Position numbers and translations under genes: made by a program
Shown here: positions 11,200-37,207 of the stretch, piece after piece
Position numbering within the stretch: position 1 is the stretch's first letter
Layout: each line of letters starts with the position of its first letter
Source of the DNA: a virus
DNA length: 37,207 bases
IMG/VR virus record: IMGVR_UViG_3300034418_007420
Span: 1-37,207 of that record
Strand: one strand, 5' to 3'
Notes under the pieces: model-generated
The model's input: the letters and a program-made list of their open reading frames with translations, nothing else
Database searches by the model: none
What the model was told of the DNA's origin: nothing

Positions 11200-11532
11200 A
11201 TGGCAAGAGTTGTAAGGAAAAGTTCTGGTAGTAGAGTTGTAAAAACTTCGACTTCAAAATCATCAGCAGATACTCCAAATGTAAGGTCTACAAGACAACC
11301 ATCTCGTATAAGAGAGATGGGAGACGCTGATTTTGGAACTTTAAATGCTTCAAAAAATGGATATGTAATCACATACGACAGTGCAACTAATGATTTTATG
11401 CTTATATCACCCGATGATGTATTAGTAACATCAACTTCAACTCCAGCACCAGATGAATTTATTGATCAGTTAGAACAACAACTTGATTTGGGAACAATTG
11501 CCACCGGAGACATTGATGGTGGAGGATTCTGA
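11200..11532 (+). CDS. Small structural protein, paralogue of the next gene
   Basis: The 110-residue product has a basic, Ser/Thr-rich N-terminus (RVVRKSSGSRVVKTSTSKSS), then a core GYVITYDSATNDFMLISPDD (54-73) that is paralogous to VLVYDSDTDSFFLESPDK of the next gene, a helix DEFIDQLEQQLDL, and a C-terminus ending IDGGGF. Its stop and the next start overlap (TGATG). The same ending recurs in the 78-residue and 734-residue proteins, suggesting a shared assembly contact. Function is unknown; structural by context. Confidence 0.72.
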   Translation: MARVVRKSSGSRVVKTSTSKSSADTPNVRSTRQPSRIREMGDADFGTLNASKNGYVITYDSATNDFMLISPDDVLVTSTSTPAPDEFIDQLEQQLDLGTIATGDIDGGGF

Positions 11533-14353: not shown

Positions 14354-17300
14354 ATGGCAAATCCAACAATTAAGTTAAAAAGATCCTCAGTTCAAGGAAA
14401 AATTCCAACAACAGGACAACTTCCTCTGGGTGAGTTAGCTATTAATACTTATGATGGTAAGTTATTTTTAAAGAAAGACGATGGTACAGAAAGTATTGTA
14501 GAAGTTGGAGCAGGAACCGCTAACCAATTAACCACTTCAACTACATTTGGTGGAGATGTTAGTGGAACTTATAATGCAATTGTAGTTGCTAATGATAGTC
14601 ATACACATGACACAAGATACTATACAGAAACAGAATCCGATTCAAGATTCTTAGGTATCAGTGCTAAAGCAGCAGATTCTAATTTACTTGATGGTATTGA
14701 TAGTTCCCAGTTCTTGAGGTCTGATGCTGCAGATTCATTCAGTGGCACACTAACTGGTGCTTTGAGTTCAGGAGGCACCGCAATTGATTTGGCAACAAAT
14801 GACAATTACGCTTCAATGCGCGTAATTAGAAATCAAAATACTGGTGCCTTCGCAGATGGCATGTACATTGGATATGCCAATGGAAATAGTGGTTATACAA
14901 GAATTTTTGGGGGTGGCGCAACAAGTGGCGGCATCACTGTCACAGGAAGTGGAGCAAGTAATGTAACTATTGCAGGAAATGTTGCTTGGAACGCAGGTAA
15001 CGATGGTGCTGGATCAGCGTTGGATGCTGACTTGCTTGACGGTCAACAGGGTTCTTATTACCTTAATTATAATAACTTATCCAACAAACCAACTATTGGT
15101 AATGGAACTTTAACTCTGAATGTTTCTGGAACTGGTTTATCTGGTTCAACATCATTTACGGCAAACCAATCCGGAAATAGTACTTTTACTGTAACTTCTA
15201 ATGCTACATCAGCAAATACAGCTTCAACAATAGTAGCAAGAGATGGTTCCGGTAACTTTAGTGCTGGTGCTATTACCGCAACCTCCGAAAGATTATCAGG
15301 AAATCTTTCTGCTTGGAATACTACAACGCCAGGAACAGGTCTTGGTGGATTACATTTAGGTGCAGCATCTGGAACAAGTAATGTTGGTCCTGCAATTACT
15401 TTCGGCGCAAGAGATATTTCCTCTGGAGGAACCGCACAGGCAGGTATTTACATCAATTCGGATGGTACATATGGAACCAGAATGTACCTTGCAACTTCTG
15501 ATAATTATACAACTGGTTCTAAAGTTGCAATGTCTATCAGTGAATCGGGTATTGTCAATTTTTCAAGAGCAACTCCGACCTCTGGAGGAAACACAATATG
15601 GCACGCAGGTAATGATGGATCAGGTTCAGGACTTGATGCTGACTTACTTGATGGTATTAGTTCTGCCAGTTTCTTAAGATCTGATGCTGCTGATTCGTGG
15701 AGCGGAACACTTTCTTATGGGGCAAGTGATACTCACGGTCTTTCATTCCAAAACGCAACATATTCAGCAAACTCTTTGTATATTGGTGGATGGACAACAG
15801 CGAACACAAATGGCATCTCTAGGATTAGAAATTCTACTGGGAATTTACATATAGATTCTGCCGCAAATGGTTCTTTATACTTAAATCAGTATTCATCTGG
15901 TGGAGTATATGCAAGAGGAAATGTAGTCTGGCACGCAGGTAATGATGGTGCTGGATCTGGTTTAGATGCTGACTTACTTGATGGACAACAGGGTTCTTAT
16001 TACTTAAATTATAGTAATTTTTCCAATACTCCAACTATTGGTAATGGCACTCTAACTTTAAATGTTTCTGGTACAGGTCTTTCTGGTTCTCAGACTTTTA
16101 CTGCAAATCAATCTGGTAATGCTACATTTACTGTAACTTCTAATGCTACTAGTGCAAATACAGCAAGTACTATTGTTGCTCGTGATGCATCAGGTAACTT
16201 TACTGCAGGTACAATTACTGCTGCTTTGAGTGGTAATTCTACAACAGCAACTAATATCAGTGGATATTCGGGAACTTATTGGACTTCTAATAACGATGGT
16301 GCTGGAAGTGGTTTAGATGCTGATTTATTTGATGGACAACAGGGTTCATATTATCAACCTGCTTCAACGGCATTAAAAACATCAACCACATTTGGTGGAG
16401 ATGTCAGTGGAACTTATAATGCTATTGTAGTTGCTAATGATTCTCACCAACACACTCAGATCTACTCTAAAGGGAACTATGTGTGGACATCTAGCACTGC
16501 TCCCAGAAACTTCCCAGATGGCATTTCTTTATCGTTTGTTCAATCATCTAATGGGTGGCAAAGCTACGGGACTGTAGTCAACTTCCATACATACCCCAAC
16601 GATGGCGCAACTGCGCAGTTCTATTTTCCTTATAGCGCCTCGTTTGGAGGAAACTCCATGCAATACCGCCTAGGTCTCTACAACAATGCCGGGTGGACTG
16701 GGTGGAAAACAATTTGGGATAACACTAACGACGGAGCAGGTTCTGGACTTGATGCGGACCTGCTTGATGGTCAACAGGGTTCTTACTATGCGCCTAAAGC
16801 ATCTCCTTCATTTACAGGAACTCCAACAGCACCGACTGCTTCTGCGGGGACAAACACAACTCAACTTGCTACCACTGCATTTGTCTCTACTGCAGTTTCA
16901 AATCTGGTAGATTCGGCACCAGGAACACTTGATACTCTGAATGAGTTAGCTGCTGCTTTAGGTGATGACTCCAACTTTAGCACAACTGTAACTAATTCTA
17001 TCGCCACTAAATTGGCTCTTAGTGGCGGTACAATGACAGGAAACATTGCGTTTTCTGGTGCTCAAACTGTAGACGGTCGAGACCTTTCAGCAGATGGATC
17101 AAAATTAGACGGAATAGCAGCAGGAGCAGAAGTTAATGTTCAGTCTGATTGGAATGCTACTAGCGGTGATGCGTTAATTCTCAACAAACCAACAATCCCC
17201 ACCAATAACAACCAACTGACTAATGGTGCTGGTTATATAACTTCTAGTGGAAGTATTACTGGTAGTGCTGGAACTCTTGATGGTCTTGATAGCACTCAGT

Positions 17301-20300
17301 TCTTAAGGTCTGATGCTGCAGATACTTCTTCAACAACTTATACCTTTACAAATACTTCTATTAATCCAAAATTGGATTTTAGCGGACATGCTGGTGCTGC
17401 TAACTACAACTACTTTATGAGAGCGAGTAATGACACTGGAGTTAAAGCAGTTCATTTTGTGAACGGCTCTACAAGGACTGGCGATGGAGGAATTAATACT
17501 TATACGATTAGAAACGACGCGGGAAGTCTCAGGCTGGGCAGATCAGAGTATTCCACTCTGATTGAAGGTTCTGGTGATTTAACCTTTAACGCCAATGAAG
17601 TTTGGCACGCAGGTAACGATGGTGCTGGTAGTGGTTTAGATGCCGATTTACTAGACGGTATTTCTTCCGCAAGTTTCTTAAGAGGTGATGTAGATGATAC
17701 ATTTACCAGACTGAGTGGAATCAGAGTAAGTTGTGGATTTGATTCGGGAAATGATAATTCTGTTGGTTGTTCAAACTGGTTTAGATCTAGTGGTTCTACA
17801 GGTTGGTATAATCAAACATATGGTGGTGGTTGGTACATGCAAGACACCACCTGGATTAGATCCTACAATAACAAGTCAATCTACCACAACACAGGAACAT
17901 TAAGAACTGATGGAACTCTCCAAGTAGGTAGCGGCGGCGCAACATTTAATGCTCCAAATGGTGGAACAGTTACTATTTCAGGTAGTACTGCTTGGCACGC
18001 AGGTAATGATGGTGCTGGATCTGGTTTAGATGCTGACTTACTTGATGGTCTTAATAGCACTCAGTTCTTAAGGTCTGATGCTGTTGCTGCTGCGAGTCAA
18101 CGAATACAATTCACAGCGAATAGTACTAATAATTGGGACAACATAGCAACAACCCAGGGAAATCTAGGTTGTATTGAAATTCGCAACGATGGTGCTGGAA
18201 ATGATGCTTTTATGGCATTCCATGCTAGTAGTGACTTTGCCTTCTACTTTGGTCTTGATGCAAGTACTAATGACCTTTCTGTTGGTGGCTGGTCAATGGG
18301 TGCCAACAAATATAGAGTATGGCACGCAGGTAATGATGGTGCTGGTAGTGGTTTAGATGCTGACATTCTTGACGGTCAACAGGGTTCTTATTATCTTAAC
18401 TACAATAACTTCACAAACACTCCAACAATCCCCACCAATAACAACCAACTGACTAATGGTGCTGGTTATATAACTTCTAGTGGAAGTATTACTGGTAGTG
18501 CCGGAACTCTTGATGGTCTTGATAGCACTCAGTTCTTAAGGTCTGATGCTGCAGATACCGCCACGGGCATAATAACATTTAATGCCGATACCAGATATGG
18601 AAGTCAAAGTTCTCAGCAGGGTGGAGGATTAGCAGTTCAAAGGGTATGGAATAAAAGCGTCGCAGCTGGTCAATTATATCAATTAGGAACTTGGCACGAT
18701 ACGGAAGGAACCGCTTCTATTTTAATTCAAGTTTCATCTGAAACCTCCGGAAATTCAGGAACTTCTACTTATCTTTGGCAGGGTGGATTTTCCCAATTAA
18801 CAGGTAGTTATTATAGATTATATCCATTAAATGTAGGAAGAGGGCACGGTCAGGGTGCTGATACTGGAGAGAATACTAATGCTTGGCAAGTTTTCATATA
18901 TGGAACAACTGTAACAGGAAGTAACTATATCTACGGTCTTGCAGTTCATGTAGCATCTGGTGCCAGTAATAAAAATTTAGTTGTAACTGCAACTGAGTTA
19001 AAGCGTGGCATGTCATTTACTGACCAAGGTAGTTCGTCAGTAATTACATCTTTTACTAACAGTGGTAACATCTTTAGTAACAGAACTGTTTTAGCAGAAA
19101 ATGTAAAAATAGGAAGTTCTTTCAGTCAAGTTTGGCACGCAGGTAATGATGGTGCTGGATCTGGATTAGATGCTGACCTACTCGATGGTCTTAATGCAAA
19201 CACTGCTGGAGCAAATGTTATATTAAAAACAAGTTCCAGTGGATACATTCTTCACGATAACTGGATTCGTATTGGTAGTGGAAATGGACTCTATAATTCC
19301 AATGGTGCGTATTTCTATGAAGATACAACATATGGGTGGTTCTCTAGATCAAGAATTTCTAATTCATCTTCAATAAGACTGCAAGTTTATAATGGAACTA
19401 ATGTAGGTTGGTTGTATGCAGATTCTAGTTTAAATCAAGGATTTTTAAGCAGTGGGGGAGGTTGGAGATTATTTATCCCAAATAGTGGAAATATCAAGAG
19501 AGATAATTTATATGGGTTGTGGGATTCTGGTAACGATGGATCTGGATCTGGTTTGGATGCTGACTTACTTGATGGACAACAGGGTTCATATTATCTTAAC
19601 TATAATAACTTATCCAACAAACCAACTATTGGTAATGGAACTTTAACTCTGAATGTTTCTGGAACTGGTTTATCTGGTTCAACATCATTTGCGGCAAATC
19701 AGACTGGCAATGCTACATTTACTGTAACTTCTAATGCTACATCAGCAAATACATCTTCAACAATAGTTGCTCGCGATGGTTCTGGTAACTTTAGTGCTGG
19801 TATAATTACTGCAGCATTATCTGGTAATGCAACTACAGCAACTAATATTAGTGGTTACTCAGGAACTTATTGGACTTCAAATAACGATGGAGCAAGTTCT
19901 GGACTTGATGCTGACCTACTTGATGGTCAACAGGGTTCTTATTATCAAAATGCTAGCAATATTAATGCAGGAACTCTCAATGATGCTAGATTAAGTTATA
20001 AAGAATTGGGAAGATCGCCTGTTGGTAATTTTGGACAATGGGCAAGTCATACAGCATTTAATGATTTTAATACACCTCCAACATATTGGGGATGGACATA
20101 TCTGAATGGTACAGCAAATGCTCCAAATACATCCTCAGTACAGTGGTATAGAGGAAGATTTAGTTTAGGAAATGCATATGGTCTAGGCAGTGATGTTAGT
20201 GATTATTGGATGGAAATGGCAATACCAAGGTATAGTCAAGGTGGAGCTCCAGGTAATCTTTGGATTCGTACCTGTGAAAATGGTTCTGAACAGTCTTGGT

Positions 20301-23300
20301 ATCAGGTAGCAGCAACCGTCAGCGGCAATACAACTTGGCACGCTGGCAACGATGGTGCTGGTAGTGGACTTGATTCTGACTTACTTGATGGTCAACAAGG
20401 TTCATATTACCTCAACTACAATAACTTATCTAACAAACCAACAATTCCCACTAATAACAATCAACTGACGAATGGCGCTGGTTACATCACCAGCGCAGAT
20501 GGCGGCAACGCTGCAACAGTTGATGGTCTGGACAGCAGTCAGTTCTTGAGGGCGGACGCCAACGATACCTTCTCGGGCTCTCTGACAGGCAGCGGCAGCG
20601 CGAAGATCACCTTTGGACCAAACAGTACTTGGGGTAAGTATCTCGTTGTTGGCGGAAATGGTTACGGCGGAAATGCAAACACCGCCTCCATGGTTACGAC
20701 TAACGGCAACCTGCATTTAGATGCAGCGACCAGTAGTGCCACTTACTTGAACTACTACGCCGGGACCGCAGGTGTTGCGTTCGGAACTGGTTCTACAGGC
20801 ATCGTTGCTTGGATGGGTCCAGACGGCGATCTATGGAAGGGCGGTGCTGATAACTCTGGAAGTAAGTATTGGCACGCAGGCAATGATGGAGCAGGTTCAG
20901 GACTTGATGCTGACTTACTTGATGGTATTAGTAGTGCTGGATTTGTTACAACTCCCGGAAGTTCATCACAATTTATATCCGGAAATTCCGGTGGTGCCGT
21001 AAATCCAAATAATGTTACTATTAATGGAATTCAGTATGCGAATAGTGTTTCATTATTTGGACAAACTGATGGAGCATTATTCTCCCAGGCATATAATTCT
21101 TCTTGGATTGGTCAGATTTTCCAAGACTACAGAACAGGACAACTTGCAATCAGAGGTAAAAATAATGGAACTTGGCAGGCTTGGAGAACTGTCTGGGATT
21201 CATCAAATGATGGATCAGGTTCTGGTCTTGATGCTGACTTACTTGATGGTCAACAGGGTTCTTATTACCTAAACTACAATAACTTTACAAACACTCCAAC
21301 AATTCCCACCAATAATAACCAACTGACTAATGGAGCTGGTTATATAACTTCTAGTGGAAGTATTAGTGGTAATGCTGCAACAGCAACCACTCTTCAGACG
21401 GCACGCACGATCAATGGAGTGAGCTTCAATGGTTCGGCAAACATTACTGCCGAACCTTACGTCGAACGCGATGACAGCACAAATGCCACGCGCTATCTAA
21501 CGTTTGTAGATGACGCCACGGCCGCCTACAAGCGTCTGAACATGGACGCAAATCTTACCTATAACCCTTCAACGAATACCCTAGCTACCTCTATCAGCGG
21601 CAATGCTGCAACTGCAACTAATATCAGTGGATACTCAGGAACTTATTGGACTTCAAATAACGATGGAGCAGGTTCTGGACTTGATGCTGACTTACTCGAT
21701 GGACTGAGTAGTGGAAGTTTCTTCAGAGCAGATGCTGCAAACAGTGTAGACGCAAGACTAGCAGCTGGAGACGGAAGAGGACTTAGATTCTGGGATAGTG
21801 ATAATTATAAAATCTGGATGTCCCATTCAGGAAATGCAACCTGGGGCGGAAGACTAGATTCCACTTCTGATTACAATATGTACTTCAGAATGACTGGAGG
21901 AACAAATAGAGGATTTGTATTTAAAAATAGCACTACAAATGTATTCCAAATTGAGTCTAATGGACAAGTAAGACTTGCTTCAAATAATATCTACGCAGGT
22001 AATGCCAATATTGTATGGCACGCTGGTAACGATGGTGCTGGAAGTGGACTTGATGCTGACTTACTTGATGGTCAACAGGGTTCTTATTACCTTAACTATA
22101 ATAACTTATCTAACAAACCAACAATTCCCACTAACAATAACCAACTGACTAATGGTGCTGGATATATAACCTCTAGTGGAAGTATTACTGGTAGCGCAGG
22201 AACTCTTGATGGTATTGATAGTTCCCAGTTCTTAAGGTCTGATGCCAATGATGAGGCTACTGGTTCTTATCTATTCAATAGAAACACTACAACGATTTCC
22301 AATAGTTCATATGCACAAGGACAGAACCACATTGAATTAAGAACTACAAACCAAACAAATCCAATTATCGGATTCCATAGGTCTGGATATAGTGCTACTG
22401 CGCTATATCACGCAGGTTATGGTATAAATTCCCTTAGAATGAGAAATGCTGATGGCAATGATGGACCTATATTCTCAACATTTAATGATGGTGCTGGATC
22501 TGGTTTAGATGCTGACTTACTTGATGGATATAACACTGCAACTGGAGCAACAGCAAATACTGTTGCAGTGAGAGATGGCAGCGGTCACTTGACTATGAAC
22601 TATGGTTTCGCGGCATACTTTAATATGAGCCATGGAACTAGTACTCGTACTGCTGATACCATTTTCTATTCCTCAACAGACAACTATATCAGAAAAAATG
22701 ATGCAACTGGAATGAGGTCATCTCTCAATGTTCCAACAAGAACTGGTGGTGATGCTAGTGGAACTTGGGGAATTAATATTACCGGTAGTGCTGCTACTGC
22801 TACTAGTGCTACTAGTGCTTCTTATTCCGATTACTTAACAGGTAGTGCTTTTGCGACTACAGGATCGCCATCAAATGCTCTGGAGTATCAGCAAGCTGCT
22901 AGTATTTCAGACACAAGATTAGCACCCACTACAGATTGGTATAACACAATCAGAATGGGTCATGGAAATCCTTATAATTATTATAGCAATACTCTTGCTA
23001 TGCAAATGACCGGTACTGGTGCTGGTCAAATAAGGACTCAGTTAATTTCAAATAATAGTCCACAAGGATGGAGAACTGTCTGGGATTCGTCGAACGATGG
23101 ATCAGGTTCTGGATTAGATGCTGACTTACTTGATGGTCTTAATGCTGCAACAACAGGTGCAAATACAATTGTAAGAACTGATGGTTCCGGAAATATTGCA
23201 GCATCTGGTAATGTCACAGCATACTCTTCTGATAGAAGACTGAAAGAAAACTTCAACCATATTGATTCTCCAGTTGAGAAAATACAAAAACTTAATGGTT

Positions 23301-23578
23301 ATACCTTTGACTGGAATGAGAAATCAAAAGAACTTGGATTTACTCCAAAGCATGAAAAGAATGATATTGGTTTAATCGCACAAGAAGTTGAAGATATTCT
23401 TCCACAGGCAGTTGCACCAGCACCATTTGATACAAAATCAAATGGAGAATCTAAATCTGGAGAGAACTACTTAACAATTCAATATGAGAGACTTGTTCCA
23501 TTGCTGGTTGAAGCAATTAAAGAACAACAAAACCAGATAAATAAATTGACTCAAGAAATTGAGCAACTTAAAAACTAA
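14354..23578 (+). CDS. Giant mosaic tail fibre with peptidase S74 chaperone C-terminus
   Basis: The 3074-residue product starts with the fibre N-domain NPTIKLKRSSVQGKIPTTGQ, LPLGELAINTYDGKLFLK. The body alternates standard linkers (WHAGNDGAGSGLDADLLDG, QQGSYYLNYNNLSNKPTI, DSTQFLRSDAAD; at least 18 copies of the LDADLLDG-type element) with different insert domains, several resembling pyocin-knob segments (for example GNYVWTSSTAPRNFPDG ... WTGWKTIWD near 16460-16725). The last 116 residues are an S74 intramolecular chaperone: S2959-D-R-R-L-K2964 supplies the Ser-Lys dyad that normally self-cleaves just before the Ser, followed by GYTFDWN, DIGLIAQEVEDILPQAV, LTIQYERLVPLLVEAI and a coiled coil. 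The chaperone trimerises the fibre and is then released. GC content varies sharply between inserts. This is probably the main long adhesion fibre or a side fibre. Confidence 0.92.
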   Translation: MANPTIKLKRSSVQGKIPTTGQLPLGELAINTYDGKLFLKKDDGTESIVEVGAGTANQLTTSTTFGGDVSGTYNAIVVANDSHTHDTRYYTETESDSRFLGISAKAADSNLLDGIDSSQFLRSDAADSFSGTLTGALSSGGTAIDLATNDNYASMRVIRNQNTGAFADGMYIGYANGNSGYTRIFGGGATSGGITVTGSGASNVTIAGNVAWNAGNDGAGSALDADLLDGQQGSYYLNYNNLSNKPTIGNGTLTLNVSGTGLSGSTSFTANQSGNSTFTVTSNATSANTASTIVARDGSGNFSAGAITATSERLSGNLSAWNTTTPGTGLGGLHLGAASGTSNVGPAITFGARDISSGGTAQAGIYINSDGTYGTRMYLATSDNYTTGSKVAMSISESGIVNFSRATPTSGGNTIWHAGNDGSGSGLDADLLDGISSASFLRSDAADSWSGTLSYGASDTHGLSFQNATYSANSLYIGGWTTANTNGISRIRNSTGNLHIDSAANGSLYLNQYSSGGVYARGNVVWHAGNDGAGSGLDADLLDGQQGSYYLNYSNFSNTPTIGNGTLTLNVSGTGLSGSQTFTANQSGNATFTVTSNATSANTASTIVARDASGNFTAGTITAALSGNSTTATNISGYSGTYWTSNNDGAGSGLDADLFDGQQGSYYQPASTALKTSTTFGGDVSGTYNAIVVANDSHQHTQIYSKGNYVWTSSTAPRNFPDGISLSFVQSSNGWQSYGTVVNFHTYPNDGATAQFYFPYSASFGGNSMQYRLGLYNNAGWTGWKTIWDNTNDGAGSGLDADLLDGQQGSYYAPKASPSFTGTPTAPTASAGTNTTQLATTAFVSTAVSNLVDSAPGTLDTLNELAAALGDDSNFSTTVTNSIATKLALSGGTMTGNIAFSGAQTVDGRDLSADGSKLDGIAAGAEVNVQSDWNATSGDALILNKPTIPTNNNQLTNGAGYITSSGSITGSAGTLDGLDSTQFLRSDAADTSSTTYTFTNTSINPKLDFSGHAGAANYNYFMRASNDTGVKAVHFVNGSTRTGDGGINTYTIRNDAGSLRLGRSEYSTLIEGSGDLTFNANEVWHAGNDGAGSGLDADLLDGISSASFLRGDVDDTFTRLSGIRVSCGFDSGNDNSVGCSNWFRSSGSTGWYNQTYGGGWYMQDTTWIRSYNNKSIYHNTGTLRTDGTLQVGSGGATFNAPNGGTVTISGSTAWHAGNDGAGSGLDADLLDGLNSTQFLRSDAVAAASQRIQFTANSTNNWDNIATTQGNLGCIEIRNDGAGNDAFMAFHASSDFAFYFGLDASTNDLSVGGWSMGANKYRVWHAGNDGAGSGLDADILDGQQGSYYLNYNNFTNTPTIPTNNNQLTNGAGYITSSGSITGSAGTLDGLDSTQFLRSDAADTATGIITFNADTRYGSQSSQQGGGLAVQRVWNKSVAAGQLYQLGTWHDTEGTASILIQVSSETSGNSGTSTYLWQGGFSQLTGSYYRLYPLNVGRGHGQGADTGENTNAWQVFIYGTTVTGSNYIYGLAVHVASGASNKNLVVTATELKRGMSFTDQGSSSVITSFTNSGNIFSNRTVLAENVKIGSSFSQVWHAGNDGAGSGLDADLLDGLNANTAGANVILKTSSSGYILHDNWIRIGSGNGLYNSNGAYFYEDTTYGWFSRSRISNSSSIRLQVYNGTNVGWLYADSSLNQGFLSSGGGWRLFIPNSGNIKRDNLYGLWDSGNDGSGSGLDADLLDGQQGSYYLNYNNLSNKPTIGNGTLTLNVSGTGLSGSTSFAANQTGNATFTVTSNATSANTSSTIVARDGSGNFSAGIITAALSGNATTATNISGYSGTYWTSNNDGASSGLDADLLDGQQGSYYQNASNINAGTLNDARLSYKELGRSPVGNFGQWASHTAFNDFNTPPTYWGWTYLNGTANAPNTSSVQWYRGRFSLGNAYGLGSDVSDYWMEMAIPRYSQGGAPGNLWIRTCENGSEQSWYQVAATVSGNTTWHAGNDGAGSGLDSDLLDGQQGSYYLNYNNLSNKPTIPTNNNQLTNGAGYITSADGGNAATVDGLDSSQFLRADANDTFSGSLTGSGSAKITFGPNSTWGKYLVVGGNGYGGNANTASMVTTNGNLHLDAATSSATYLNYYAGTAGVAFGTGSTGIVAWMGPDGDLWKGGADNSGSKYWHAGNDGAGSGLDADLLDGISSAGFVTTPGSSSQFISGNSGGAVNPNNVTINGIQYANSVSLFGQTDGALFSQAYNSSWIGQIFQDYRTGQLAIRGKNNGTWQAWRTVWDSSNDGSGSGLDADLLDGQQGSYYLNYNNFTNTPTIPTNNNQLTNGAGYITSSGSISGNAATATTLQTARTINGVSFNGSANITAEPYVERDDSTNATRYLTFVDDATAAYKRLNMDANLTYNPSTNTLATSISGNAATATNISGYSGTYWTSNNDGAGSGLDADLLDGLSSGSFFRADAANSVDARLAAGDGRGLRFWDSDNYKIWMSHSGNATWGGRLDSTSDYNMYFRMTGGTNRGFVFKNSTTNVFQIESNGQVRLASNNIYAGNANIVWHAGNDGAGSGLDADLLDGQQGSYYLNYNNLSNKPTIPTNNNQLTNGAGYITSSGSITGSAGTLDGIDSSQFLRSDANDEATGSYLFNRNTTTISNSSYAQGQNHIELRTTNQTNPIIGFHRSGYSATALYHAGYGINSLRMRNADGNDGPIFSTFNDGAGSGLDADLLDGYNTATGATANTVAVRDGSGHLTMNYGFAAYFNMSHGTSTRTADTIFYSSTDNYIRKNDATGMRSSLNVPTRTGGDASGTWGINITGSAATATSATSASYSDYLTGSAFATTGSPSNALEYQQAASISDTRLAPTTDWYNTIRMGHGNPYNYYSNTLAMQMTGTGAGQIRTQLISNNSPQGWRTVWDSSNDGSGSGLDADLLDGLNAATTGANTIVRTDGSGNIAASGNVTAYSSDRRLKENFNHIDSPVEKIQKLNGYTFDWNEKSKELGFTPKHEKNDIGLIAQEVEDILPQAVAPAPFDTKSNGESKSGENYLTIQYERLVPLLVEAIKEQQNQINKLTQEIEQLKN
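15068..15157 (+). repeat. 90-nt exact direct repeat, copy 1
   Basis: Identical to 19601-19690, inside the giant fibre gene; codes NLSNKPTIGNGTLTLNVSGT and flanking residues. Confidence 0.88.
17189..17325 (+). repeat. 137-nt direct repeat, copy 1
   Basis: Matches 18422-18558 with a single T/C difference; codes PTNNNQLTNGAGYITSSGS and the following LDGLDSTQFLRSDAAD linker. Confidence 0.88.
18422..18558 (+). repeat. 137-nt direct repeat, copy 2
   Basis: Second copy of the element at 17189-17325, one mismatch (GTGCCGGAAC against GTGCTGGAAC). Confidence 0.88.
19601..19690 (+). repeat. 90-nt exact direct repeat, copy 2
   Basis: Identical to 15068-15157, 4.5 kb away in the same reading frame. Confidence 0.88.
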
Positions 23579-30326: not shown

Positions 30327-32408
30327 ATGTCTTTAATATCAGTTACAGAGTCTGTTAGGTCAAACAACTTAGATGTGAAAGGAGTTATTCATATCGGTGC
30401 TCATTATGGTGGATACGATGGAGAAGAGATAAAGGAATATGTTGACCTAGAAGCAAAAAGAATTGTATTGTTTGAACCATTAAAAGAAAACTTTAGAGTT
30501 TTATATAAAAACTCAGAAAAGTTTAATTTAAATAAAATAGAACTTCACAATGTTGCTTTGGGTAGTCATTGTGGTTTGATTGAAATGAATGTTTCTAGTA
30601 ATGATGGACAAAGTAGTTCTATATTAGATCCAACTATTCATTTAGATGCTCACCCAGAAGTTTCATTTTTGGGTAAAGAAGAAGTCGGCATAAAAACCTT
30701 GGACGAATATAATATCAATGACTGTAATGTCATGGTTATTGATGTTCAGGGATATGAGTTAGAAGTTTTTAAGGGAGCAGAAAAAACTTTAAAGAAAGTT
30801 GATTGTATTTTTTGCGAAGTTAATAATGAGGAACTATACAAAGGAACTCCAAGAGTTGAAGAAATAGATGAGTATTTAAGTCAATATAATTTTAAAAGAG
30901 TAGAGACGAAATGGTGGAATAATAATCTATGGGGAGATGCTCTTTACATTAAAGAAAAGAATAAACTAACAAACTTTCCATTAACTTTTTTTGTAAGTTT
31001 AAATGAAAGTGAAGATAGAAGAAAAAACTTATTAAATCAGTTTAAGGAATATAACTTTGATAAGTATGTCGGCATTTTATCTCCAAGGTTTAAAGACTGT
31101 AAAGATGAAGTTATTGGAGCATATGCATACACACTCAATGATGGAACTAAAGGTTGTTGTGTTTCTCATTTGAAAGCAATTTCTATTTGGTATAACAATA
31201 CAGATGAAGAAATTGCTTTCTTCTGTGAAGATGACTTATCTTTAGAAACTGTCAAATACTGGAACTTTACTTGGGAGGAGTTTATAGAAACTCTTCCTGA
31301 TGATGCTGAATGCGTTCAACTTCTTACTATTAGAGATGACTTTGATACATTTGAATTGAGAGATAGAAAGTGGAATGACTGGGGAGCAACAGCATACATT
31401 ATGACTAGAAAGTATGCTAAGAGGATACTTGATCATTATATCACAAAAGACTCAAAATACAAACTTGAAATACCAAACTCTGATGCTCAACCACTTGTAG
31501 AGAATATTCTTTTTACAAATATGGGTAAAGTTTATACCATTCCTTTATTTGTGGAAGAAAACAAGTTTCAGTCTACTTTTGATCCGGGTGATGATCTAGA
31601 TGTGAAAGGAGGTCAAAAGAATAATCATTATATTGCTAGTAAAACTGTATTGGACTATTGGAAAGGTAAAATGAAAAAATCAACTTTAGAGCAACTTTTA
31701 ACTGAATATGGGTTGGACACAGAAAATCCAGAGATAAACTTTAAAGTTGGTCTTGAATATGAAAGACTTGGACACAATGCTCCAGCACTCTCATTCTTCT
31801 TAAGAGCAGCAGAGAGAACTGAAGACGATCTTCTTGCTTATGAGTCTCTCATACATGGTTCAAACTGTTATGACAGGCAAGGAACTAGAGATACAACTGC
31901 TAAAGGACTTCTTCAACAAGCATTGTGTATTCTTCCCAATAGACCTGAAGCATACTATTTGATTAGTAGGTTTTCTGGTAGAAGAAACTGGTGGCAAGAC
32001 TGCTATATCTTTGCTGATCAAGCACTCAGAGTTTGTGACTTTGAGTGTGAACCATTATCAACTGATGTTGAATATGTTGGAAGATATTCTCTTATTTACT
32101 TAAAGGGAGTTGCTGCTTGGTGGTGGGAAAAGGTAGAAGAATCTAAAGAACTCTTATTGGATATACTCAATAACCATGAAATGAATGAAGAGTTTAAGAA
32201 TCTAACAATAAAGCAGTTAGAACTTATGGGATACAAAGCAGAGATAAAAACAACTCCAAGACTAAGTATTCCCTTGAAGAATGGCATTGAAAGTTTAAGT
32301 AAGATTCTTAAGAGTATAGATTGTTCTATTGAAGACTTGAATATTGATGATGGTGGATATAAGGAACTATCAGAGTATTTGAATGAACTAAGTATAACTC
32401 AAAACTGA
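30327..32408 (+). CDS. FkbM methyltransferase - GT25-like glycosyltransferase - TPR fusion
   Basis: The 693-residue product has three parts. Residues ~10-210 are an FkbM-type SAM methyltransferase: VIHIGAHYGGYDGEE (20-34), IVLFEPLKENF, VMVIDVQGYELEVFKG (135-150). Residues ~217-440 resemble GT25 family enzymes: FFVSLNESEDRRKNL, GCCVSHLKAI (276-285), FFCEDD (298-303) and WGATAYIMTRKYAKRIL. Residues ~455-600 are TPR-like helical repeats (GLEYERLGHNAPALSFFLRA, LPNRPEAYYLISRF). GT25 includes LPS galactosyltransferases and collagen hydroxylysine galactosyltransferases. The protein could add a sugar and O-methylate it, with TPRs holding the target. GGAGG lies ~9 nt before the ATG. It is the last gene of the late block. 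Confidence 0.85.
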   Translation: MSLISVTESVRSNNLDVKGVIHIGAHYGGYDGEEIKEYVDLEAKRIVLFEPLKENFRVLYKNSEKFNLNKIELHNVALGSHCGLIEMNVSSNDGQSSSILDPTIHLDAHPEVSFLGKEEVGIKTLDEYNINDCNVMVIDVQGYELEVFKGAEKTLKKVDCIFCEVNNEELYKGTPRVEEIDEYLSQYNFKRVETKWWNNNLWGDALYIKEKNKLTNFPLTFFVSLNESEDRRKNLLNQFKEYNFDKYVGILSPRFKDCKDEVIGAYAYTLNDGTKGCCVSHLKAISIWYNNTDEEIAFFCEDDLSLETVKYWNFTWEEFIETLPDDAECVQLLTIRDDFDTFELRDRKWNDWGATAYIMTRKYAKRILDHYITKDSKYKLEIPNSDAQPLVENILFTNMGKVYTIPLFVEENKFQSTFDPGDDLDVKGGQKNNHYIASKTVLDYWKGKMKKSTLEQLLTEYGLDTENPEINFKVGLEYERLGHNAPALSFFLRAAERTEDDLLAYESLIHGSNCYDRQGTRDTTAKGLLQQALCILPNRPEAYYLISRFSGRRNWWQDCYIFADQALRVCDFECEPLSTDVEYVGRYSLIYLKGVAAWWWEKVEESKELLLDILNNHEMNEEFKNLTIKQLELMGYKAEIKTTPRLSIPLKNGIESLSKILKSIDCSIEDLNIDDGGYKELSEYLNELSITQN

Positions 32409-32412
32409 CCCC

Positions 32413-32441
32413 TTGACAAGTCACTGGATTGTCTGTAGAAT
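32413..32441 (+). promoter_or_regulatory. Sigma-70-type promoter
   Basis: TTGACA (32413-32418), 17-bp spacer, TAGAAT (32436-32441): a near-consensus host-type promoter starting five bases after the last late gene. It marks the change to the small-gene region. The following leader to the ATG at 32509 has no gene. Confidence 0.75.
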
Positions 32442-34923: not shown

Positions 34924-35088
34924 ATGACACTGACTCAAGAAGAGTGGAAAGAGTTGAAAGATCTTAAGAGAGCAATTAATGAGTATCCTGCTTCCGTTCA
35001 CTGGGATAAGATGGAACGTTTTGGTTATCTTATGGTGAAAAGTTTGAATGGCGATTGTGAGAAATATCAAACAATCAAGACCAAATAA
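34924..35088 (+). CDS. Hypothetical small protein
   Basis: The 54-residue product (TLTQEEWKELKDLKRAINEY, VHWDKMERFGYLMVKSLNGD) is helical. It stands between a possible promoter and a strong terminator and may form a one-gene transcript. Confidence 0.65.
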   Translation: MTLTQEEWKELKDLKRAINEYPASVHWDKMERFGYLMVKSLNGDCEKYQTIKTK

Positions 35089-35094
35089 ACCAGT

Positions 35095-35126
35095 AAGTCA
35101 AGTGGCACATACCACTTGACTTTTTT
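35095..35126 (+). terminator. Rho-independent terminator overlapping a promoter
   Basis: 11-bp perfect stem AAGTCAAGTGG / CCACTTGACTT (35095-35105 with 35112-35122), loop CACATA, then a T-run to 35126. Its 3' arm contains the -35 box of the next promoter. Confidence 0.85.
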
Positions 35127-35144
35127 GTTAAATGGGACTATTAT
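35116..35144 (+). promoter_or_regulatory. Sigma-70-type promoter embedded in a terminator
   Basis: TTGACT (35116-35121), 17-bp spacer including the T-run, TATTAT (35139-35144), 24 nt before the ATG at 35169. The -35 box is the 3' arm of the terminator stem. Confidence 0.65.
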
Positions 35145-35168
35145 CTAAAAGTAATACCAAAGAGGTAA

Positions 35169-35408
35169 ATGGCACAGAAATTCTTATACGTCGTTGATCA
35201 TTTTGTCCCCTTTCCAAGTTCCGAATATGGTGGGGTTTGGAATGTAATCGCAAAAGACGATGATGAATGCTTCGATCTCATTAAAGACTACGATGGGGGT
35301 TTTAACGAAGAGTTTTATGTAAACTTGCGTGATAGAGTTGTAAACTCACGTAATTATCCTCTGTCTTCTAATGAAGAATCGTGTGTAGTTGAGTCCTTTA
35401 CCACCTAA
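35169..35408 (+). CDS. Hypothetical small protein
   Basis: The 79-residue product (KFLYVVDHFVPFPSSEYGGV, WNVIAKDDDECFDLIKDYDG) is not recognised. It is first in a five-gene run driven by the promoter at 35116. Its stop and the next start overlap (TAATG). Confidence 0.68.
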   Translation: MAQKFLYVVDHFVPFPSSEYGGVWNVIAKDDDECFDLIKDYDGGFNEEFYVNLRDRVVNSRNYPLSSNEESCVVESFTT

Positions 35409-35575
35409 TGGCAGAAAAAATGTCAAGAACTGATGCTCTAGTTTTTCATCTCAAGAGAGAACATGCAAATCAAGTTGACTACTTGAGGGAGCAAATACTA
35501 AATCAAAAGAAAGAAATTGAGTTTCTAAAAAACCAAATAAAACTTATAACAGAAGGCAGAACTTACGATTGCTAA
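35408..35575 (+). CDS. Hypothetical coiled-coil small protein
   Basis: The 55-residue product (RTDALVFHLKREHANQVDYL, REQILNQKKEIEFLKNQIKL) has heptad-like Leu/Ile spacing and is probably a coiled coil. It overlaps the previous stop by one base. Confidence 0.62.
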   Translation: MAEKMSRTDALVFHLKREHANQVDYLREQILNQKKEIEFLKNQIKLITEGRTYDC

Positions 35576-35576
35576 A

Positions 35577-35750
35577 ATGACTGATAAAGAATTAAACATA
35601 TACATCCTCGAAGACTTTTGTTGCACAAGAATGGACGAACTTGTTGAAGAAGACAGGTTTGACGATTCTCATGCTATCTTCCAAGAGTTTATGTTTGATT
35701 GCGACAAAAAAGACTACTTCTTTCTTGAGGACTTAACTAATGTTTGTTGA
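35577..35750 (+). CDS. Hypothetical acidic small protein
   Basis: The 57-residue product is strongly acidic (LNIYILEDFCCTRMDELVEE, FMFDCDKKDYFFLEDL). It overlaps the next gene by 11 nt. Small acidic phage proteins sometimes mimic DNA or inhibit host enzymes, but nothing here shows that. Confidence 0.6.
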   Translation: MTDKELNIYILEDFCCTRMDELVEEDRFDDSHAIFQEFMFDCDKKDYFFLEDLTNVC

Positions 35751-35919
35751 AGGTGCCGAAGTAGAATATGATGGTCATTTTGGTGTTATTGCATTTATAT
35801 GTGATGACTATTCAGTTCTTAAACTTCCAGCAGTAGGAAAAAATAACAACCCAGCAAGATTGCTTATATTTAAGCAATATTATTCAAAAGTAACCGTATT
35901 AAAAGATAGTGGGAGGTAA
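35740..35919 (+). CDS. Hypothetical small protein
   Basis: The 59-residue product (FVEGAEVEYDGHFGVIAFIC, ARLLIFKQYYSKVTVLKD) looks like a small beta-barrel (KOW or SH3-like in pattern). Unrecognised. Confidence 0.62.
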   Translation: MFVEGAEVEYDGHFGVIAFICDDYSVLKLPAVGKNNNPARLLIFKQYYSKVTVLKDSGR

Positions 35920-35920
35920 A

Positions 35921-36088
35921 ATGTCAGAAGAAATTCCTTTATATGATCTCCAAGAAGAGTTGACAAATGGATGGTTTACTGTAAATGAGGGAAAAAATTT
36001 AAATAAAGAAGACTGTACTAACCTATACAATACTTTACTTCGACAAGGAGTAAACCCACGTAGGTTAAAGATAGTTAGAGTTGCTTAG
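35921..36088 (+). CDS. Hypothetical small protein
   Basis: The 55-residue product (PLYDLQEELTNGWFTVNEGK, LYNTLLRQGVNPRRLKIVRV) follows GGGAGG. It is the last gene before the second terminator-promoter element. Confidence 0.62.
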   Translation: MSEEIPLYDLQEELTNGWFTVNEGKNLNKEDCTNLYNTLLRQGVNPRRLKIVRVA

Positions 36089-36107
36089 GACACCCGAATA
36101 ACTGGCA

Positions 36108-36146
36108 CAGACCCCTTGACTTTTGGTTGAGGGGTCTGTATTATTT
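36108..36146 (+). terminator. Terminator hairpin overlapping a promoter
   Basis: 13-bp stem CAGACCCCTTGAC / GTTGAGGGGTCTG (36108-36120 with 36126-36138; two wobble pairs), loop TTTTG, followed by an AT-rich tail rather than a pure T-run. Confidence 0.7.
36116..36144 (+). promoter_or_regulatory. Sigma-70-type promoter embedded in a terminator
   Basis: TTGACT (36116-36121), 17-bp spacer, TATTAT (36139-36144), 22 nt before the helicase ATG. Same boxes and spacing as at 35116, again overlapping a hairpin. Confidence 0.65.
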
Positions 36147-36166: not shown

Positions 36167-37207
36167 ATGATTCAACTCCGACCACATCAGTCTCGCGGTT
36201 GTGACGCGATGATTGTGAATGATAAGGGTCAAATCATTGTACCTACTGGCGGTGGTAAGACCCTGACTATGATTATGGATGTTAAGCGTATCCTTGATAT
36301 TCAACCACAAACTATTGTTGTAGTTGTTCCTCGTATTCTGCTCATTGAGCAGATCTGCCATGAGTTTCTTGAAGTTATCGACACCAAGAATGTTCATGTG
36401 ATGCATGTGCATTCTGGAATCACACGTCATTTCAGTAGCACAAGACCCAAGCAAATTCATATGTTTGCGAATGTTGCTCGTACCGCTGGTGAGAGTTGCA
36501 TTATCTTCACAACTTACAACTCCCTCAATCGTATTCAGCAGGCAGACATTGAGGTCAATACCATTTACTTTGACGAGGCACACAATAGCGTAAAGAAGAA
36601 CTTCTTTCCTGCTACTGAGTTTTTCTCCAATGAAGCAGATCGTTGCTATTTCTTTACTGCAACTCCTGTTCACTCTGTTGCCACTAACAAACCCGGCATG
36701 AATGACGCTGAGGTTTATGGTAATGTGATCTGTAAGGTTCCTGCTCCTGAACTTGTTCAGGGTGGATTTATTGTTCCCCCCAAGGTATCTGTAAGGCAGA
36801 TTGATATTGCTTGCTCTAACGCCTTTGAGAGGGACTGTAAGCACCTTCTAGACACTGTTGAGGGTGAATATATCACCAAAGGTCTAATTTGCGCAAAGTC
36901 CACTAAACAGATCGTTGGACTGATGTCTAACACCAGTTTCCTTCAAGAAATGCAAGAGCGTGGTTATTCTGTGCTCTACATTACTGCTAAGACTGGTGCA
37001 GTTATCGACGGCAAGAAGGTCAATCGTGAGGAGTTCTTTGACACTCTGAACGCATGGGGTAAGGATAACTCTAAGAAGTTTGTAGTTCTACATCACAGCA
37101 TCATTTCTGAGGGCATTAGTGTCTCTGGTCTTGAGGCAGTTGTGTTTATGCGTTCTATGAACTATATTGGTATTCTACAGAGTGTAGGTCGCACACTGCG
37201 CCTACAC
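36167..37207 (+). CDS. SF2 DEAD/DEAH-type helicase, 3' end missing
   Basis: 347 codons are open to the right edge. The start MIQLRPHQ leads straight into the helicase core: Walker A PTGGGKT (26-32), motif Ia VVVPRILLIEQ, DEAH (136-139), motif III TATP (164-167), and motif VI QSVGRTLR (338-345). It is an ATP-dependent nucleic-acid translocase. T4 UvsW has a sizeable domain before its helicase core, absent here, so this is either a UvsW relative lacking that domain or another phage SF2 helicase used in replication, recombination or transcript handling. Codon use is richer in C-ending codons than in the small genes upstream. It is driven by the promoter at 36116. Confidence 0.88.
   Translation, partial: MIQLRPHQSRGCDAMIVNDKGQIIVPTGGGKTLTMIMDVKRILDIQPQTIVVVVPRILLIEQICHEFLEVIDTKNVHVMHVHSGITRHFSSTRPKQIHMFANVARTAGESCIIFTTYNSLNRIQQADIEVNTIYFDEAHNSVKKNFFPATEFFSNEADRCYFFTATPVHSVATNKPGMNDAEVYGNVICKVPAPELVQGGFIVPPKVSVRQIDIACSNAFERDCKHLLDTVEGEYITKGLICAKSTKQIVGLMSNTSFLQEMQERGYSVLYITAKTGAVIDGKKVNREEFFDTLNAWGKDNSKKFVVLHHSIISEGISVSGLEAVVFMRSMNYIGILQSVGRTLRLH

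Follow-up and report, generated by a model that had tools for sequence, protein, structure and literature searches.

Two intergenic sites of a cyanophage contig, at 35086-35144 and 36086-36144, each combine, within ~60 bases, a strong hairpin with the hexamers of a sigma-70-like promoter, and they raise the question of whether a single element can end one transcription unit and start the next. The first-pass annotation had proposed as much, describing two terminator-promoter fusions of identical geometry in which the 3' arm of the hairpin supplies the -35 box. The window, meaning the whole stretch of DNA analysed, is an IMG/VR record of 37,207 bases from a T4-like cyanophage with protein-level kinship to the Kyanoviridae. 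Tail-fibre genes are present in it, and a run of small ORFs (~32.5-36.1 kb) is followed by a UvsW-like helicase gene. One ORF of 3074 aa (14354-23578) matched several tail-fibre families, and a 693-aa ORF (30327-32408) joined methyltransferase-like and glucosyltransferase-like regions (phrog_8156, phrog_2835). Rfam and tRNA scans of the whole window returned no matches.

Two composite sites and one ordinary promoter

All features are given on the plus strand. At both sites TTGACT (35116-35121 at site 1, 36116-36121 at site 2) was followed after a 17-bp spacer by TATTAT (35139-35144 and 36139-36144), as annotated, with 10 of 12 consensus matches, and transcription would be predicted to start at ~35151 and ~36151. 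The hairpins were likewise confirmed, both being far stronger than shuffled sequences: the RNA minimum free energy was -17.4 kcal/mol at site 1 (z -4.3) and -25.4 kcal/mol at site 2 (z -5.9), with no shuffle as good in either case.

The two arrangements are not identical. At site 1 an operator-like palindrome, TAAACCAGTA-AGTC-AAGTGGCACA (35086-35109; 16/20 to consensus, left half degenerate and right half intact), overlaps a hairpin of 11 bp with a 6-nt loop (35095-35122), which is followed by TTTTG and is terminator-like on the minus strand too. The -35 box lies within the 3' arm of this hairpin, and the -10 is found 16 bp past the stem and 29 bp past the operator, ahead of a gene for a 79-aa protein of unknown function (35169-35408; phrog_21741). 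At site 2 the palindrome is TAGGACACCC-GAAT-AACTGGCACA (36086-36109; 17/20 to consensus), and the ORF upstream has its stop codon in the first three bases of this palindrome. The hairpin here (36107-36139; 15 bp, 3-nt loop) fills the slot from operator to -10, with the -35 at the loop end of its 5' arm and its 3' arm serving as the spacer between -35 and -10; the -10 abuts the stem, overlapping its last base and the T-rich tail, and the post-stem ATTATTT amounts to a weak U-tract. The UvsW-like SF2 helicase gene that follows (36167-37207; phrog_16; ResIII, DEAD, Helicase_C) continues past the contig end. Supply of the -35 by the 3' arm thus holds for site 1 and fails for site 2, and CTTGAC, which had been taken as a common stem feature, is instead part of a longer motif downstream of the 24-bp palindrome, which had been missed at both sites.

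A third member had been suggested at 32413-32441. The promoter there (TTGACA-N17-TAGAAT, sigma-70-like, 11 of 12 consensus matches) is ordinary, its proposed pairing was at chance level (z +0.6, with 135 of 200 shuffles as good), and an operator was looked for and found to be absent; as judged from these features the site is a promoter only.

The good sigma-70 hexamers of sites 1 and 2, the short intergenic space, and the host-like sigma-70 promoters of cyanomyovirus early genes in published accounts (PMC2984593) would all be expected if ordinary promoters lay by chance beside ordinary terminators in packed phage DNA, with the palindrome as promoter context. This explanation is judged unlikely on the evidence of the palindrome, its spacing and the orthologous loci.

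A palindrome at a fixed distance from the -10 hexamer

Sites 1 and 2 share TGGCACANACCNCTTGACT with no mismatches, in copies exactly 1000 bp apart. When up to three mismatches were allowed, two copies were found in the window against 0.12 expected, the pattern having been derived from the same two sites that were then counted; the bare pattern CCCCTTGACT-N17-TATNAT occurred three times against 1.6 expected, which is not above chance. TGGCACANACCNCTTGACT includes the right half of the 24-bp operator-like palindrome, fixed 29 bp ahead of the -10, and the upstream and downstream boxes together form the consensus TGTGMCASTY-N4-RASTGKCACA.

The inner 18 bases of TGGCACANACCNCTTGACT, scanned against IMG/VR, returned 53 stretches, and a reversed control pattern gave no matches in 20 related contigs. 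When the copies were aligned, a half-site containing CAGTT emerged upstream, and the -10 fell exactly 17 bp past the -35; among non-redundant copies, conservation beyond the search pattern extended to CA and T upstream and to this -10. The copies lie mostly just past a stop codon, with a start codon ~45-47 nt after the motif. Most exact-motif copies lack a hairpin, and the terminator is therefore best regarded as an optional occupant of the slot.

Gaps of 0 to 10 at the palindrome centre were scanned, and N4 alone was enriched (other gaps, 0-1), with 16 copies in S-CRM01, 10 in G002, 6 each in S-PM2 and G005, and 4 in Syn9. In the scanned cyanophage genomes an offset of 29 nt from the palindrome to the start of TATNNT was seen 33 times, no other offset exceeding 8, and both window sites have an offset of exactly 29. 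These spacings were taken from the palindrome scan because a pattern requiring TRNNAT at offset 27 is biased toward TGNTAT at 30. TTGAC was present at +6/+7 in 16 of 159 strand-oriented palindromes, so that the -35 belongs to some copies only, and the S-CRM01 elements at 78828 and 105711 are examples that lack it; so sharply defined a palindrome, kept at 29 bp from the -10 in -35-less copies as well, argues against chance packing. The 29-bp slot may contain a terminator hairpin alone, a -35 alone, or the two together. Several copies in S-CRM01 and S-PM2 hold a full intrinsic terminator within it (e.g. GGGGATCCCTAGGGGTCCCCTTTTT), and over all oriented operator sites terminator-like slots were modestly enriched (18/408 against 4.9 shuffled). 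Upstream of position 601 in contig L391, an operator-like GGACAGTTTGAGAACTGCACAC directly adjoins TTGACT, and the -10 is nearer than the usual 29 bp.

In S-CRM01 (NC_015569) the strongest copies that combine operator and -35 (127458, 139446 and 149118) are located ahead of tRNA clusters. Those of S-PM2 and Syn9 are interspersed with small ORFs or precede the helicase or an anti-restriction gene, the latter in the case of one S-PM2 copy. The tRNA-cluster and anti-restriction positions are consistent with early expression.

The operator belongs to the phages, since host-family genomes hold almost none: 9 of 81 Synechococcus/Cyanobium genomes contained one to three copies at up to two mismatches, compared with the 16 in the 178 kb of S-CRM01, which were scored somewhat differently. 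A host regulon is accordingly not supported, the operator not being recurrent across the 81 genomes. Among known sites, sigma-54 (TGGCAC-N5-TTGC) was ruled out by direct count, the box-to-box spacing being 4 bp too long, and neither NtcA (GTA-N8-TAC) nor Pho boxes (consensus from PMC3037559) matched by eye. A MarR-type cyanophage factor from a T7-like phage binds downstream of the start, and the available text of its description (PMC9692554) gives no matching motif. Nothing relevant came up when the literature was searched for the operator letters. The palindrome scan of genome contigs hit 44 scattered bacterial contigs that pointed to no regulator; six contigs of one Pyrinomonadaceae MAG (SSF56; L126, L133, L137, L143, L155, L158) carried exact palindrome copies, which suggests that an unrelated regulon in bacteria has an identical operator.

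Conservation and turnover at orthologous loci

An orthologue test anchored on the helicase gene 3' of site 2 covered 15 named cyanophages and 61 distinct IMG/VR loci. Most of the named phages had an operator remnant, a hairpin and a -10 in the same order ahead of the helicase, with stem sequences unrelated to one another; the element was absent there from S-B05 and P-TIM68. At the IMG/VR loci a hairpin beside a -10 was found at 42 of 61 (0-5 in shuffled sequences, 4 in coding controls), and an operator (at least 13 of 20 consensus positions) with a -10 at the right distance at 43 of 61 (0.4 shuffled, 0.6 coding controls). At least four T occurred in the 8 nt past the stem in 39 of the 42 hairpins, a count due in part to the T-rich -10. 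Because the same arrangement precedes the orthologous helicase at most loci, site 2 is a typical member, and one instance, of a widespread putative composite promoter-terminator. Neither this excess of operators over expectation nor the placement of hairpin and -10 a few bases apart across unrelated stems fits chance packing. The -35 in relatives' hairpins was located in the 5' arm in 11 cases, in the loop in 5, and in the 3' arm in 0 of 17.

Site 1 behaved differently from the expectation that further copies would be found in related genomes, an expectation borne out at site 2 and essentially failed at site 1. Its arrangement was present, at the usual spacing, in 1 of 40 distinct upstream regions of 35169-35408 orthologues, within the window's own lineage only, and a DNA search of named phages with site 1 gave chance-level matches only; site 1 is lineage-restricted. 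By eye, the other upstream regions mostly carry a plain TTGAC-type promoter, and many share a leader like TAAACTAAAGGAGTAATTTACACAAACAA after the TTGAC box, which amounts to a conserved plain promoter and ribosome-binding region. Of the annotated fusion ending one unit and starting the next, it is therefore the site 2 form, recurrent before the helicase in most cyanophages, that has stood, and the site 1 form is not conserved.

Two near relatives of the window (L017 and L054; 89-93% identical) preserve the pairing of the site 2 stem by compensatory change, with CCTC/GAGG in place of the CCCC/GGGG of the window. Both carry an extra ~840 bp (L054 1190-2040) with a 62-aa ORF and the gene for a NUMOD3-bearing protein of 184 aa, which is probably a homing endonuclease. 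The insert joins at window position 36100/36101, the centre of the site 2 operator, and the inserted ORF ends through AACTGGCACA, its stop codon being the TGA within the -35 TTGACT. The evidence bearing on gene gain and loss at such junctions consists of this single clear insertion, whose end falls within the site 2 operator, and of the lineage restriction of site 1.

It is also conceivable, though quite improbable, that the hairpin is an inverted-repeat protein site, or a cruciform blocking polymerase in the promoter spacer, rather than a terminator. The strong inverted repeat at site 2 spans -35 to -10, its 3' arm lies within the spacer and its T-rich tail is weak, all of which would suit such a function. 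A protein site is argued against by stems that differ wholly in sequence between phages with pairing kept; a cruciform would have no need of the clear T-runs found between stem and -10 in many copies (L322, L344, L350, Sf-FS3), and blocking by a cruciform is required by none of the observations. That the palindrome acts instead as RNA, folding at the 3' end of the preceding transcript into a hairpin for processing or stability, with the promoter secondary, is the least probable explanation: a perfect operator would fold into a 10-bp RNA stem and some copies show paired changes (TGTGACA..TGTCACA, TGTGCCA..TGGCACA), but many conserved copies hold two mismatched positions (TGTGACAGTT with AAGTGGCACA) that are tolerable in DNA half-sites and make a poor stem, the distance from palindrome to -10 is fixed, and as a rule no U-tract follows the palindrome.

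A putative promoter-terminator module and its relation to known systems

The favoured reading, to which we assign a probability of roughly three in four, is that each site is a composite intergenic module, equipped with a putative operator, that would both terminate the preceding unit and drive transcription of the following one. What the sequence itself shows is the architecture, its conservation, its spacing and its phage specificity; promoter activity, termination and early timing are predictions drawn from these. In such a module a 29-bp slot would separate the 24-bp palindromic operator from a -10 hexamer lying ~25-30 bp ahead of the start codon that follows. A -35 or an intrinsic terminator hairpin could occupy the slot, or the two together, as at site 2, where the -35 forms part of the 5' arm. 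RNA polymerase that reads in from the gene upstream would transcribe the hairpin and T-rich tail and terminate, and polymerase would start independently from the -10, together with the -35 where one is present. A putative dimeric protein on the operator probably helps initiation, because many copies have no -35 and yet keep the operator-to-(-10) distance fixed. The new transcript would start downstream of the hairpin and for that reason would not itself be terminated. In a bolder version, which we think unlikely, -35-less early promoters are driven by a dimeric activator specific to the phages, and the terminator, fixed in place inside the promoter, hands polymerase to the next start, in termination-coupled re-initiation; were it true, early regions would be chains of self-restarting cassettes.

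A 'novel regulatory element' reportedly described by Doron et al. (2016, ISME J) is said to drive early genes in T4-like cyanophages (Syn9, P-TIM40). The palindrome occurs at least four times in Syn9, with several copies within a small-ORF block, and that element may be the present operator; if the motifs are identical, what is new here is limited to the terminator-in-slot reading and its spread, the operator having been described before. Middle promoters of T4, composed of a MotA box and a -10, are comparable in having an upstream activator box at a fixed distance that replaces the -35, as the operator would in many copies here. The MotA box of T4 is a short site near -30, whereas the present palindrome spans 24 bp and has its centre near -54. 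Neither motA nor asiA is present in cyanomyoviruses (PMC2984593).

Judged by sequence, the site 2-type module is similar to the PeSLs, composite early-promoter/stem-loop elements of T4-like myoviruses (Arbiol 2010; Comeau 2014, as described in PMC4503421). A terminator-like stem-loop is in both cases fused to an early-type promoter in an intergenic position; the module lies in a variable small-ORF region of a T4-like phage (window 32.5-36.1 kb, with Kyanoviridae relatives), and in L017 and L054 a module boundary falls at an indel, the ~840-bp insertion. It differs from PeSLs, as far as these are described in PMC4503421, in its palindromic operator and fixed 29-bp slot and in a hairpin that replaces or contains the -35. 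Few PeSLs are reported in S-PM2 (PMC4503421), and a search of that text found no mention of a palindrome; one S-PM2 stem loop given there (11369-11391) falls at the same place as an element at 11347 made up of operator, hairpin and -10.

Early and middle control in T4-like cyanophages is unclear, the motA, asiA, alt and mod genes being absent (PMC2984593, review). An operator with fixed spacing in the cultured phages S-CRM01, S-PM2 and Syn9 and in many metagenomic phages would offer a handle on early control, through the protein that may bind it and the possible replacement of the -35. A terminator placed in the promoter slot would, in turn, provide a simple rule by which small early cassettes may be added or lost with their neighbours undisturbed.
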